DNA of 64,000 bases from Trematomus loennbergii (lineage: Eukaryota > Chordata > Actinopteri > Perciformes > Nototheniidae). The notes below the pieces were generated by a model, which was not told the origin of the DNA, made no database searches, and saw only the letters and a list, made by a program, of their open reading frames with translations. The DNA lies in the NCBI GenBank assembly GCA_012861695.1, contig JAAOOA010000322.1, positions 65,001 to 129,000 on the forward strand. Direction: 5' to 3'. A program made the position numbers and the translations under genes. Of this stretch, positions 5,276 to 64,000 are shown in pieces. Positions within the stretch are counted from its first letter, which is position 1, and each line of letters starts with the position of its first letter.

Positions 5276-21361
<16,086 letters not shown>

Positions 21362-22134: not shown

Positions 22135-24758
<2,624 letters not shown>

Positions 24759-24815
24759 TAAACATCTTCAGTCAAGCCACAATTGTACTTCAAATGTCAC
24801 AAAACTGTAACAGAA

Positions 24816-26159: not shown

Positions 26160-28440
<2,281 letters not shown>

Positions 28441-32837: not shown

Positions 32838-51034
<18,197 letters not shown>

Positions 51035-51113
51035 GGTACATCCAGCCTGCACCTTCAACAGCTCCCCATGTCTGATGGAGAGGGAGGGAGGACGGAGGGG
51101 GTGTGTGGTGTGC

Positions 51114-51179
<66 letters not shown>

Positions 51180-51258
51180 CAGGAAGAGTGAGATGTGTTG
51201 TTAGGAAACGGACCAGAGGAGGCGCCACACTGCAATAAATACTGAAGGACTACAGCTA

Positions 51259-51293
<35 letters not shown>

Positions 51294-51924
51294 AGAAAGA
51301 GAGACATGAAGAGTGAGATGTGTTGTTATAAAAGTACCACAGGAGGCGCAGCTATGAAGGAAATAAAAGCTAATAGAATAATGAGAATGGTGGAAGACAG
51401 AACTCTTATTTATCTTAAGTGAAAAATAGTAATACAACAATGTAGAAGTGCTTAAGTAGAAGTGGTTCATGTAAAATCTTACTTTTAAGTAGTGAAATCT
51501 AGGCTACTTGAAGTTTCATTTTCCACTGATGGAGCATTTTGTCCAAATCAATGATTATTGTATGTCTTGTTCTTGTTTATGTTGGCATGTGTAAATACTG
51601 TATATCTAAATGCATTCCCTTTGTGCTGCAACTTCTCTCAACTTAAAACTGTATTTATTATAGATATTATTTTATTGACTTATGTTGTATTTCAGTTACA
51701 AAATTGCATCGTATCGATCAAATTTTGTATGTAAGCTTTATATTAGTATGAATCTAGTTTCCTTTCATAGTTTCAAAAGAGTATTTACTAAACGGGTTTC
51801 AACACCTCTGACAGAATATTTAGACTTGTTTTACTTTCTCATGCAGGATGAGACCTTCCACATTAACTAACATGTTTTAATAAACCCAAACAAAAGGAGA
51901 GAAAACAGGGAAACCTTTCAATAT
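51035..51924. other. Spacer between ptprn 5' end and dnpep 3' end
   Basis: It holds the ptprn 5' UTR/promoter side, with TG tracts at 51107-51165 and 51261-51292 each followed by GAGAGA. No other exon is seen. Confidence 0.55.
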
Positions 51925-52071: not shown

Positions 52072-55000
52072 ACCAGAGACTTCCTCACGGTGGGGAACAA
52101 CTCGAAGAAGCCCTGCAGGAGGAAGAGGGTGAGATCAAAAGAAGATCATAAAGATATGTTTCTGCAGCGGGAGAAAGGAAAAATTACATTAAATCAAAGC
52201 TGGAAAACAAAAGGAATCTGACGTGTGTGTGCCGGGAAGGAGAAGACATGAGGTTTTCTCGATCGTCTGAACACTTAAGGTCCAGCTGCCGTTTGTTTCC
52301 TTCAAATCATATTCCTTACCTGGAAAACATGACGGCATAATAAGCTTTTTCCAGGACTTTTTGAGAAGCCTGCATCCAGTGTTTCCCTTGGTTAATGTGT
52401 GAGGAACATGCAAGAGGAAGAGACCATGCAGGCCCTCGTTTGCTGATATATGGCAATATATCTTAGTCTATATCACTTCAGAAACAAATACCAAGAGGAA
52501 TGCACATCACGGGTTTCCAGAGCACACGTTGGCGTCTTGTTTTCTCCAAAACTAAAAGATATTCAATTTATAATCACAAGTCCTCGCATTGGAGAAGCTG
52601 AAATAGCTTTATTATTGAAACTGTATTCGGATTACTTTCAGAGCCATCATGTATTCAGTATTCAGGCACTAAGTACATTTACAAAGTAACCCTCCCAACC
52701 CTGGACACTACACACTGAAATGAACCTGGAAAGGAACATAGGGCCCCTTAAAAAAACAACAACTAACTACCTTTTAACTTCACATCAAAAACCTTTTTAA
52801 AATCATGTCATAACAAACTCAGAAGTATTTGTACTCCCCTACTTCCCACCTCTGGAGTTATACATATATAAATAGACGTCAGGGTGCCTCTGTTTGTGTT
52901 TCTCTCACCTTGAAGAGGGTGGTGCTCTGCAGGACGCTGGAGGTGCAGCACATCTCTCTGATGGAGTGCATGGAGAGCTGCGGGGCCCCGATGTCCACCA
53001 CGGGGACCCCGAGGCGGGCCGCTAGATCGGACCGATGGTCGACCCACAGGCGCTGTCGTTACGCACCATCACATCCTGAAAACAATTAGAATGGAATATC
53101 TCTGTGTCTCCTATTGGCTAGCAGCTCCAACACATTGTACGTGATAGGCTAAGGGGCGGGACATCTCTAAGCGGTTGACCAATCACAACAGAGCAGCCAG
53201 CTAACCGATCAGAGCTTTTTGAACATTAAAGCATGGAGACATGTCACAGGAGAGATAATAAATACAAATATGAACATGAAAGTGAGCATAGGGCGCCTTA
53301 AAAAAACTAAAACAATTAACTATCTTTTAGCTTTACATCAAAAACCTCTTTAAAAACATGTGATTACAAACTCAAAAGTGTTTTTTTGCTACATGAAGGA
53401 CTACCAACTGCTCCTTCAGTGTCTCTGCAGATATCGAGCCGTGTCTAAGCGTATCTCTCCCCGTGACGTAAACAACCTTTCTCCGCTCCTGATCCCAATC
53501 TCACATAATTCAGAGGTTTGGTTCCCAGGAATGGAAAAGGATCATTTATGCATCGTGGTCCTTTATTTCTGATCTTCGGTACTCACACTCACACACACAC
53601 TCTCTGACACACACACACACACACAGTACCTGCAGGGGCACGTCGACCTGTCCAGCGATCTCCCTGATGACGGAGGCGGTGACGGCCGTGGTGGCGTAGC
53701 GCTGGTTGCCGTTGAACTTCAGCACTGGGCCCTGAAAGGAACATTATAAGAATATAAGTCACAATTATTATGATGATTATTTATACATTTATAATCAACA
53801 GGATGTAAAAACAAGCATGGCTGCAGGCGAGGATTTCTTTCAACATGTAATCATGCATTCATGTTGGATTTGGATTTAAGATCTCATCACCTTGTGGAAA
53901 GCTGGGCGATGGTTCTCCTCATGCTTCTCCCTGAGGAGAGAATGAAAAAGTGAGATACATTTAAGATGTGCAGATATATGGTGTGTTTGTGCAGATATAT
54001 GGTGTGTGTTTGTGCAGATATATGGTGTGTGTTTGTGCAGATATATGGTGTGTGTTTGTCTAGATATTGTGTGTTTGTGCAGATATATGGTGTGTGTTTG
54101 TGCAGATATATGGTGTGTGTTTGTGCAGATATATGGTGTGTGTTTGTGCAGATATATAGTGTGTTTGTGCAGATATATGGTGTGTGTTTGTGTAGATATA
54201 TGGTGTGTGTTTGTGCAGATATATGGTGTGTGTTTGTGCAGATATATGGTGTGTGTTTGTGCAGATATATGTGTGTGTTTGTGCAGATATATGGTGTGTG
54301 TTTGTGCAGATATATGTGTGTGTTTGTGCATATATGGTGTGTGTTTGTGCAGATATATGGTGTGTGTTTGTGCAGATATATGGTGTGTGTTTGTGCAGAT
54401 ATATGGTGTGTGTTTGTGATATATGTGTGTGTTTGTGTAGATATATGGTGTGTGTTTGTGCAGATATATGGTGTGTGTTTGTGCAGATATATAGTGTGTG
54501 TTTGTGCAGATATAAGGTGTGTGTTTGTGCAGATATGGTGTGTGTTTGTGCAGATATATAGTGTGTGTTTGTGCAGATATATAGTGTGTGTTTGTGCAGA
54601 TATATAGTGTGTGTTTGTGCAGATATATAGTGTGTGTTTGTAGATATATGGTGTGTGTTTGTCAGATATATGGTGTGTGTTTGTGTAGATATATGGTGTG
54701 TGTTTGTGCAGATATATAGTGTGTGTTTGTGCAGATATATGGTGTGTGTTGTGCAGATATAAGTGTTTGTTGCAGATATATGTGTGTTTGTGTAGATATA
54801 TGGTGTGTGTTTGTGCAGATATATGTGTGTGTTTGTGCAGATATATGGTGTGTGTTTGTGCAGATATATGGTGTGTGTTTGTGCAGATATATGTGTGTGT
54901 TTGTGCAGATATATAGTGTGTGTTTGTGCAGATATATAGTGTGTGTTTGTGCAGATATATAGTGTGTGTTTGTGCAGATATATGGTGTGTTTGTGCAGAT

Positions 55001-58000
55001 ATATGTGTGTGTTTGTGTAGATATATGGTGTGTGTTTGTGCAGATATATGGTGTGTGTTTGTGCAGATATATGGTGTGTTTTGTGCAGATATATGGTGTG
55101 TGTTTGTGCAGATATATGTGTGTGTTTGTGCAGATATATGGTGTGTGTTTGTGTAGATATATGGTGTGTGTTTGTGCAGATATATGGTGTGTTTGTGCAG
55201 ATATATGGTGTGTGTTTTGTGCAGATATATGGTGTGTGTTTGTGCAGATATATATGTGTGTTTGTGCATATATATGGTGTGTGTTTGTGCAGATATATGT
55301 GTGTTTGTGCAGATATATGGTGTGTGTTTGTGCAGATATATAGTGTGTGTTTGTGCAGATATATGGTGTGTGTTTGTGCAGATATATGTGTGTGTTTGTG
55401 CAGATATATGGTGTGTGTTTGTGCAGATATATAGTGTGTGTTTGTGCAGATATATGGTGTGTGTTTGTGCAGATATATATGTGTGTTTGTGCAGATATAT
55501 GGTGTGTGTTTGTGCAGATATATAGTGTGTGTGTTGTGCAGATATATGGTGTGTGTTTGTGCAGATATATGGTGTGTGTTTGTGCAGATATATGGTGTGT
55601 GTTTGTGCAGATATATGGTGTGTGTTTGTGCAGATATATGTGTGTGTTTGTGCAGATATATGGTGTGTGTTTGTGCAGATATATGGTGTGTGTTTGTGCA
55701 GATATATGGTGTGTGTTTGTGCAGATATATGGTGTGTGTTTGTGTAGATATATGGTGTGTTTGTGTGAGATATTGTGTGTGTTTGTGTAGATATATAGTG
55801 TGTGTGTTTGTGCAGATATATGGTGTGTGTTTGTGCAGATATATAGTGTGTGTTTGTGCAGATATATAGTGTGTGTTTGTGCAGATATATGTGTGTTTTG
55901 TGCAGATATATAGTGTGTGTTTGTGCAGATATATGGTGTGTTTGTGCAGATATATGGTGTGTGTTTGTGCAGATATATGGTGTGTGTTTGTGTGCAGATA
56001 TGGTGTGTTTGTGCAGATATATGGTGTGTGTTTGTGCAGATATATGGTGTGTGTTTGTGCAGATATATGGTGTGTTTGTGCAGATATTATGGTGTGTGTT
56101 TGTGCAGATATATGGTGTGTGTTTGTGCAGATATATGGTGTGTGTTTGTGCAGATATATGGTGTGTTTGTGCAGATATATGGTGTGTGTTTGTGCAGATA
56201 TATAGTGTGTTGTTTGTGCAGATATATGGTGTGTGTTTGTGCAGATATATGGTGTGTGTTTGTGCAGTATATAGTGTGTGTTTGTGCAGATATATGGTGT
56301 GTGTTTGTGCAGATATATGGTGTGTGTTTGTGCAGATATATGGTGTGTTTGTGCAGATATATGGTGTGTGTTTGTGCAGATATATGGTGTGTTTGTGCAG
56401 ATATATGGTGTGTTTGTGCAGATATATGGTGTGTGTTTGTGCAGATATAGGTGTGTGTTTGTGCAGATATATGGTGTGTGTTTGTGCTAGATATATGGTG
56501 TGTGTTTGTGCAGATATATGGTGTGTGTTTGTGTAGATATATGGTGTGTGTTTGTGTGATATATGTGGTTTGTGCAGATATATGGTGTGTGTTTGTGCAG
56601 ATATATGGTGTGTGTTTGTGTAGATATATGGTGTGTGTTTGTGCAGATATATGGTGTGTGTTTGTGCAGATATATGGTGTGTTTGTGCTAGATATAGTGT
56701 GTTTGTGCAGATATATGGTGTGTGTTTGTGCAGATATATGGTGAGTGTTTGTCTAGATATTGTGTGTTTGTGTGGACACTGACTGGTAGTTCGGGTGCAC
56801 GGCGTGGGCCATGTCGGCGCTGATCATGAAGGAGAGCGGCGCCGCCTGCTGGAAGGCCGTGAGGTTGGAGGCGGAGGAGGAAACGCGGCTCAGGATGAGC
56901 TCCGTCAGGTTGGACTGAGCCCCCTGAGCACTCTCTGAGCCCACCTGGAGTAAAACAATAACAAACTGTCACGTAAACACATTCAGTCTGGACTGTTTAG
57001 GTAAACAGTGGAACGTGTGTATCATTACTCCCTAGGGTACAAGGAAACAAAGCATTCACAGCTGCTTGTTTACGCTCACCTCCTCGTTGTCGTACAGCAT
57101 GATCATGCGGACGTTGGTGTCTTTGGAGAGAGAGTCTCCAGAGCAGGACTCCAACAGAGCCTGAACCGGCACAGAGAAAGAAAAGCAGAGGACTGGATAT
57201 CACAAAAACATTTACTGGAGTTACGATAAAAGCTTAAAAAAGAATGCAACTATCTGGCAACGGTGTTAACTTTCAGGAGTTACCCGATGCCTGTTCAGAG
57301 AACACGTCCACACATTTGAATGAAGGGTTCGAACTACAGAAAAACGGAATAAATAAATATATGTTCTGACCTGCAGGGCGCAGTAGCAGCTGTGCAGGTT
57401 GTCCAGACGAGCAGAATAAATGAACTCCTCGTAGATTCCTCCCAACGCCTGCAGAGAGGAGAAGACCCTCTTTTATTTTAACTTCTTAGGTTTATCTAAA
57501 TATCCTTATTTGATCTTTTCATTGCATGTTCTTACTTCAACTTCTGTAGTAGGTTTACACATACAAGGAATTATATGTGGGTTTGGTTCATACAAAAGTG
57601 TAGTAAGAGAAATGCAAATGGAAAGTTAAATGCAAACATTTAATAAAGGAAACGTGTAGAGGGACATACGTGTCCAAAAAATACCCCAACAAATATGAAA
57701 ATGATGAAACATGCAGTATATATATGATGTAAATAGAAAGCTTTGCAGTGGTGATACTCTGCAGAACGGTCCAGAGTAGTTCGGAGTATCCCTGCTGCTT
57801 TAGACGTGATATCAGATAAGGACAGGAGACAGGAATTGGGTTTATCTGCAGACTCCCGCGGGCTGCGTGTCGGCGAGACAGAGCTCAAAGTCCAGCAGAG
57901 CTTCAGGCTCCACGTCGAGCTCCGAGCACAGAAGCTTCACCAGCGCCGGGTGGTGCTTCTCCGCCTGGGGAGGGAAAACACCTGTCACAGATATCATGCA

Positions 58001-63232: not shown

Positions 63233-64000
63233 ATGACCTCCTTCAGCTCCTCCGCCCAAACGCTTCCTCTTACCGACGCCACTTCGGACACGGAGCCTAC
63301 GCCTCGCCATCGCTCAACCGCTCGCTGCTGGGCCACGGCTCCACAGGGGGCAATGTCTCCTCCAGGTGGGAACTAGTGGAGTACAAATACTCTGTTTTTC
63401 TGACAATTATTGTTCTATTAATATAAAGGGAGGTCAGGTACTCTTTAAAACAGCTGCTAGTTATGGGTACTTTTTACTGAAGTACATTTCAAAGTTCTTT
63501 ACTTTTACTTGATGAAGAAGTTTAGTCAGTACTTGAGTAGGCCTATCTGTACTTCTTGAGTAAAGGATGTGTGTACTTGTACCATCTCTCAGGGTGTACG
63601 AGGTGACTCGGAGCAGCTCCGCCCCGGCGTACCGTGTCTCCTCCAGTCTCTACGGGAAACCTCAAGCCACCTCTTCTTCCCGAGCCTCCGCCGGACGATG
63701 CTACGCAGGAATGGGCGAGACGCTGGACTTCAGCCTGGCCGACGCCATCAACCAGGAGTTCATGACGACAAGAACCAACGAGAAGGTTGTTAAATCACAA
63801 GATTCAAGGCTTTTATTGTCATGTGTACATAGCTACAGTGTAGATATGTCAAAGGAAATCTTAGGTCACAGGCTCCTCCAACAGTGCAACACAATAAAAC
63901 AGACAAATAGTGCAAGTAAATAGAAGTAAATCCAATCCAATCCAATCCAAAGGTGGAGCTGCAGCACCTGAACGACCGCTTCGCCAGCTACATCGAGAAG
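63233..64000 (+). CDS. des: Desmin, 5' part (muscle type III intermediate filament), runs off window
   Basis: Exon parts are 63233-63365, 63593-63785 and 63953-64000+. The head begins [11 protein letters not shown] and, after restoring one base near 63264, continues [17 protein letters not shown] and GGNVSSR, then [40 protein letters not shown], and the start of rod coil 1[17 protein letters not shown]. This matches desmin (head SSYRR…SRVYQVSR and [14 protein letters not shown] in human) better than vimentin, and the neighbour dnpep agrees. Desmin filaments link Z-discs and organelles in muscle. Vertebrate desmin normally has head and coil 1A in one uninterrupted exon; here two short introns (63366-63592 and 63786-63952) interrupt it, both with exact GT-AG ends that restore the frame. 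Confidence 0.9.
63366..63592. mobile_element. hAT-like element copy C acting as an intron in the desmin head
   Basis: It starts GTGGGAACTAGTGGAGTAC and ends GTGTACTTGTACCATCTCTCAG (split here: GTGTACTTG then TACCATCTCTCAG). Its sequence, including CTTTATATTAATAG on the complement, matches the non-repetitive ends of copies A (17421-18789) and B (35281-36251), but it lacks the 37-bp minisatellite. Both ends coincide with the splice sites. Confidence 0.85.
63786..63952. mobile_element. Family Z element acting as an intron in desmin
   Basis: It contains AGATTCAAGGCTTTTATTGT, CATAGCTACAGTGTAGATAT, CACAGGCTCCTCCAACAGTG and four AATCC units at its 3' end. AAGGT occurs at both junctions (63783-63787 and 63950-63954), as a target-site duplication would. 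The left copy gives AAG then GT (donor), the right copy AAAG then GT (acceptor). Confidence 0.85.

Follow-up and report, generated by a model that had tools for sequence, protein, structure and literature searches.

The Antarctic notothenioid fishes already offer a case of introns made by transposons. In five species, introns 3 and 5 of slc26a2 are transposon-made, and the gt-ag of intron 3 falls within the inverted and direct repeats of its element; the new introns are absent from Eleginops and Bovichtus, according to the accessible part of the report (PMC12357937, Sci Rep 2025). This was the sole work on notothenioid intron gain among those listed by our searches. A search for desmin introns in notothenioids found nothing, with most subscription journals outside its scope, and one for transposon-made introns in fishes found nothing beyond the works cited here.

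Copies of an introner family number from 5 to more than 2,000 in a genome, and vertebrates show no pattern of gain by introners in the available sections of that work (PMC9860276, PNAS 2022). The ray-finned fishes also gained introns in MC2R, MC5R and other GPCR genes, and these gains are dated at ~190–320 million years in the accessible text of another report (PMC3151243). Notothenioid genome size is described as driven by transposon expansion, again in the part of the source that is available (PMC10256766).

Vertebrates rarely gain introns, and since inserted sequence erodes over time, how a gain came about can seldom be seen. Here, we examined a window of 64,000 nucleotides from Trematomus loennbergii, in which the elements inserted in desmin b, a conserved muscle gene, are still recognisable and the trimming of one may be readable. 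Judging from sequence, we take the two inserts, named A and B, to be spliced and recently gained introns with a probability of roughly 85%. We infer that both are spliced and that the splicing let the two insertions persist in the gene of a conserved protein.

Two inserts in the first exon of desmin b

Desmin b starts at 63233 on the plus strand and leaves the window at its right end. The gene order at the locus was read as ptprn-dnpep-desmin, where we take the middle gene to be dnpep and the human order to be the same. The identity of ptprn is supported by its match to 2i1y. A tandem repeat of almost 3 kb stands at 53887–56823, near the gene read as dnpep. The spliced desmin b product matched the Pfam domain of the intermediate-filament head (Filament_head, 1.7e-19) and also vimentin, and Rfam gave nothing above the gathering score on 63300–64000.

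Relatives were sought among ~5.8 billion proteins and the best 120 of 1180 matches were used. Among the matches listed, the closest desmins are those of Pogonophryne albipinna (98%), Notothenia coriiceps (97%), Champsocephalus esox (97%) and Eleginops maclovinus (P0004, 90%). Within the best 120 of the 1180, the notothenioids are followed by percid and other fishes, several of them labelled desmin b. The 97–98% identity of these nearest desmins marks the genome as that of a notothenioid.

The exon is read in three pieces, all on the plus strand. The first piece (63233–63365) runs from the start codon to VSSR, the second (63593–63785) from VYEV to TRTNEK, and the third (63953–64000) extends past the window as far as AG|GTGGGC, the native donor of intron 1. 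Between them lie two candidate introns on the same strand. Insert A (63366–63592) is a 227-bp, internally deleted member of a hAT-like family, here family A, and insert B (63786–63952) is a 167-bp repeat of another family, with a (TCCAA)n end and AAGGT at each edge. Joining 63365 to 63593 restores VSSRVYEV, and joining 63785 to 63953 restores NEK|VELQ.

The limits of insert A were exact to the base in the preliminary description: 63365 is the last base of the head codons before the insert and 63593 the first one after it. The sequence between them starts with GTGGGA and ends with CTCTCAG, and removal of this GT-AG segment restores the coding sequence, as is proper to a U2-type spliceosomal intron. 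The donor GTGGGA (63366–63371) lies inside the element's 5′ terminal repeat, which reads CAGAG|GTGGGAA in other copies. In the acceptor region (63582–63592), the desmin copy of the element supplies CCATCTCT (63582–63589) and the target supplies the (C)AG that follows. Hence, the earlier claim that the splice sites sit in the element's own termini holds for the donor but not for the acceptor AG, other copies ending in CCATCTCTG.

Both sites scored high. The donor at 63366 is the top GT within 63233–63640 and outranks 99.2% of the 4634 plus-strand GTs, and the acceptor at 63593 is the top AG within 63400–63660 and outranks 96.4% of AGs, each by a simple score (a donor matrix and a home-made acceptor score). 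For comparison, 17 of 23 relatives have a read-through tail that begins with WE, from which their native intron-1 donor is deduced to be GTGGGA; in the present genome it is GTGGGC. The yTnAy branch-site motif, which is loose in vertebrates, was found in neither insert between −60 and −12. The protein models of relatives pass straight across the junction, and no model retaining the insert A sequence was found among candidates of 35–112 residues.

A comparison of fish desmins, suggested in the preliminary description, found exon 1 uninterrupted at both insert points in 26 of the 26 ORFs fetched. These ORFs are exon-sized (179–273 residues), were picked by length from the relatives listed and are 69–82% identical to the query. 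The 23 that read past KLR into intron 1 are taken as genomic readings, and since such a search shows uninterrupted exons only, it speaks for the ancestral state and not for universality. Exon 1 of the paralogue desma in the same genome is also uninterrupted apart from one dropped base; an apparent interruption at the same place turned out to be this dropped C and not an intron.

The inserts are thus absent at their positions from the 26 ORFs and from desma, as expected of recent gains, and as far as can be seen desmin b exon 1 was ancestrally single. With the coding sequence restored and the gene continuing downstream, the proposal that a single ancestral desmin exon gained two introns from transposons is well supported at the level of sequence. 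The epithet "very unusual" given to it has to be read against the background of the clade, in which two transposon-made introns of slc26a2 are already published, going by the accessible part of that paper (PMC12357937).

The family of insert A and the proposed gains

Family A elements begin with CAGAGGTGGG (the start is also given as CAGAGGTGG) and end with CCATCTCTG or near variants. In the window, a longer copy at 17420–18789 (minus; 3′ limit approximate) has the 5′ end, the 3′ part and a 37-bp tandem repeat at 17831–18696. The copy at 35274–36251 (plus) also carries the 37-bp tandem repeat, has an eroded 5′ terminus and fills most of a ptprn intron (minus), and a 5′ end fragment at 52824–52854 (minus) keeps CAGAGGTGGGAA intact. 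The tandem repeat occupies the middle of the two longer copies and is missing from the desmin copy.

Insert A is homologous to these repeats, including the one in ptprn, just as the preliminary description had it. It matches 17431–17633 (minus) at 84% over 204 columns (E 3e-60) and 36108–36250 (plus) at 71% (E 9e-17), with further matches to 5′-end pieces at 52824–52849 (E 2e-5) and 35283–35308 (E 0.001). Its first bases are identical to the 5′ end of the 17.4–18.8 kb copy at 20 of 21 positions. In the 3′ part of that copy, 163 of 173 positions are the same with 26 gap columns excluded, and in the 36-kb copy 89 of 102 with 104 gap columns excluded.

The 1.21-Gb assembly, in which the window lies at C322:65001–129000, yielded 481 candidates of family A, of which 40 were scored. 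Every one of the 40 matched, and the desmin insert is among them. Apart from it, the remaining 39 match insert A in part, starting at its base 36 or 41, so the whole insert A is common to no other scored copy. The ends were inspected first at 8 loci (desmin included) and then in 38 stretches covering all the 39 other places, among which the 7 copies of the first round recur, and in these stretches both ends were recognised in 13 copies.

An 8-bp target duplication agrees at 8 of 8 bases in 3 of these 13 copies and at 6 or more in 11, the remaining two having 4 and 1, and because several of the 13 repeat one another, flanks included, they do not represent 13 independent events. Exact duplications include TACCCGAG and CTCGTTTA. 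Elements of the hAT superfamily duplicate 8 bp of their target and have short terminal repeats (CAG...). Terminal repeats together with the 8-bp duplication were found in the family copies, and from these features we name family A hAT-like, an assignment that we presume.

The desmin copy itself has no recognisable 8-bp target duplication, as its edges have only CAGG in common, and its left edge is trimmed by about 10 bp. The pair TCCTCCAG/TCTCTCAG, matching by eye at 6 of 8 bases, was considered as the duplication of insert A and rejected, because the other family A copies end in CCATCTCTG and hence TCTCT is the element's own.

We propose that a hAT-like DNA transposon landed in desmin b exon 1 of a notothenioid and that insert A became a new spliceosomal intron in this way. 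The 5′ terminal repeat includes AG|GTGGGA, a strong donor that resembles in type the native one of intron 1, and the element's 3′ end gives the pyrimidine stretch just ahead of the target-derived CAG. As in the other copies, the insertion probably duplicated 8 bp of the target (CAGGGTGT or AGGGTGTA), and about 10–11 bp, namely the left copy of the duplication and CAGAG, would then have been lost, if they were ever made. Had the element and its 8-bp duplication stayed complete, splicing would lengthen the message by 10 or 11 bases; such a piece is absent from the left edge, and its absence restores the protein. The loss would have brought the donor into register, and splicing would then leave the protein unchanged.

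Insert B would be a second, independent and simpler gain, by insertion at an AAGGT site with the duplication supplying AG and GT. The 374 exon bases contain only two AGGT sites and insert B occupies one of them, as expected if the AAGGT duplication supplied both splice signals. Its splice sites are weak, at the 68.5th and 70th percentiles, and better GT and AG are close by. Copies of it stand elsewhere in the window at 26.7, 34.9 and 44 kb. In one Pogonophryne gene model (P0041), 14 residues are left out and the reading picks up again precisely at |VELQ, the insert B acceptor, an independent hint that insert B is present in Pogonophryne too.

In simulation, insertions were exactly removable by GT-AG in 560, 483 and 790 per 20,000 (2.8, 2.4 and 4.0%) under three settings, and these rates are a rough guide because copy A departs from the simple duplication model that was simulated.

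Two further repeats of the window lie close to splice sites of ptprn. Its intron at 35263–36267 (minus; YHIYE|VNLVSEH) consists of a reverse-oriented family A element plus just 16 and 11 bases. AGGTGA is present at both exon borders of this intron, and the 8-mers flanking the element do not match each other by eye. It is possibly another intron made by a transposon. Separately, a copy of the insert B family at 43980–44112 stops about a dozen bases short of a putative ptprn acceptor (minus).

The family has also been thought of as introner-like, and this idea is half supported, on the donor side. As introners carry one or more of their splice sites, so family A carries a good donor, with AG|GTGG kept in 10 of the 15 copies that have a recognised 5′ end; an acceptor AG of its own is what it lacks. 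A true vertebrate introner would go further and make introns in many genes through this terminal-repeat donor. The ptprn intron, nearly all one family A copy, speaks for this, as do the slc26a2 introns of the same clade, which hold elements with a 37-nt repeat in the available part of PMC12357937, like the two window copies of family A.

However, a coding location was seen for none of the 13 delimited copies, where coding was judged by open frame length alone and the longest open frame across the empty site was 139 codons. The ptprn element lies 16 and 11 bp inward of the splice sites, is reversed and has unmatched flanking 8-mers. With 40 of the 481 candidates scored and 13 delimited copies inspected, one intron is supported for family A, that of desmin. 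We regard a role of family A as a true introner as unlikely.

Intactness of the gene

Desmin b has frame breaks near residues 10, 152 and 305 in the assembly, all of them single missing bases. At the first, the AAA run at 63258–63260 (plus) is taken to miss one A since the relatives read SAQNASS there, and the break is read as an assembly error. The coding parts of the two tandem alpha-tubulin genes of the window (23700–24770 and 27270–28390) differ by five 1-base gaps, four of them in runs, which points to single bases being dropped by the assembly. From such similar 1-base losses in the alpha-tubulin pair and in desma, the frame breaks of desmin b look like assembly errors.

The gene can be followed beyond the window. 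Residues 10–459 of the 471-residue relative P0003 were located piecewise within 63259–69594, the pieces being 88–100% identical except one at 58% (a short intron read through), and residues 460–471 were not found on the downstream continuation at E 0.001. Within the window, the models of three Antarctic notothenioids (P0001–P0003) differ from the predicted protein at 2, 4 and 3 of 125 aligned positions, of which one is an X. So few differences are no sign of decay.

A second partial desmb copy is present on contig C693 at ~49088–51907 (L024–L026) and is 98.3% identical over 4355 bp. It was tried as a possible empty site and holds residues 310–471 only, in the 29.7 kb fetched. Pogonophryne likewise has two desmin models (P0001 and P0041). 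The viral and bacterial collections, scanned for stray fish DNA, contained no relative save one short match, which covers 17 residues at 76% in a bacterial MAG (L001).

That desmin b is a decaying copy is very unlikely. In such a copy the transposons would simply disrupt the gene, splicing would be unneeded and the frame breaks would be real mutations, and the 3′ half on the other contig would fit with it, meaning that the locus is duplicated or that the assembly includes two haplotypes. The three breaks count in its favour at face value, but they resemble the single missing bases of the alpha-tubulin pair (five) and desma (one), and the protein is otherwise near-identical to its relatives. 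Moreover, the chance that two independent inserts are both exactly removable by GT-AG is ~0.1% or less, taken as the product of the simulated rates. The pseudogene reading is thus weakened by the pattern of dropped bases, the conservation of the protein and the downstream exons.

We give just as little credit to recent polymorphic insertions in one haplotype in place of fixed introns: there is a single assembly, and insert A differs at only 10 of 173 positions from its nearest relative in the window so the insertion may be young, but P0041 suggests insert B in Pogonophryne as well, and an insertion that disrupts the gene while segregating would have to be either spliced or recessive.

Relation to described intron gains

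If both inserts are spliced introns of recent origin, desmin b would add two to the pair in slc26a2, giving four proposed introns of transposon origin, spread over two genes, in one young radiation whose genomes are swollen by transposons according to the available part of PMC10256766. Notothenioids would then allow a direct measurement of how often, by what rules and at what cost introns are born. Tentatively, one may picture an Antarctic notothenioid wave of transposon-made introns, from several families and in many genes, as the first introner-like case in a vertebrate; this is possible but on balance doubtful. If true, the element families that inserted into coding exons and became introns would include a hAT-like one whose terminal repeat brings a ready donor.

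Family A copies resemble the hAT superfamily in the 8-bp target duplications and the short CAG... repeats, whereas the desmin copy differs in being trimmed and without a duplication. Like the introners of Chrysochromulina, family A has the donor in the transposon and the acceptor from the target. An introner of Aureococcus leaves 12 extra bases, of which the duplication accounts for 8 and the element for 4, an arithmetic similar to that at desmin b but with no trimming. Introners also have many copies per genome, whereas family A has one supported intron; these comparisons draw on the accessible sections of PMC9860276.

Like the gains in desmin b, those in the GPCR genes belong to ray-finned fishes, lie at MAG|R sites and have canonical GT-AG borders. 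They differ from the desmin b gains in that repeats lie in some of the introns and no single maker element appears, as far as the available text of PMC3151243 goes.

The slc26a2 gains, in the accessible part of PMC12357937, share with desmin b the suborder, the two new introns per gene and the use of dispersed repeats. Its elements NTE-2 and NTE-3 carry a 37-nt repeat, and the window copies of family A a 37-bp one. NTE-1 starts with tgt, ends with aca and has 4-nt direct repeats, whereas family A starts with CAGAGGTGG, ends with CCATCTCTG and has 8-bp duplications. As transposon-made introns of this clade are already in print, desmin b would thus be the second gene with them, through an element that is, by its ends, other than NTE-1.
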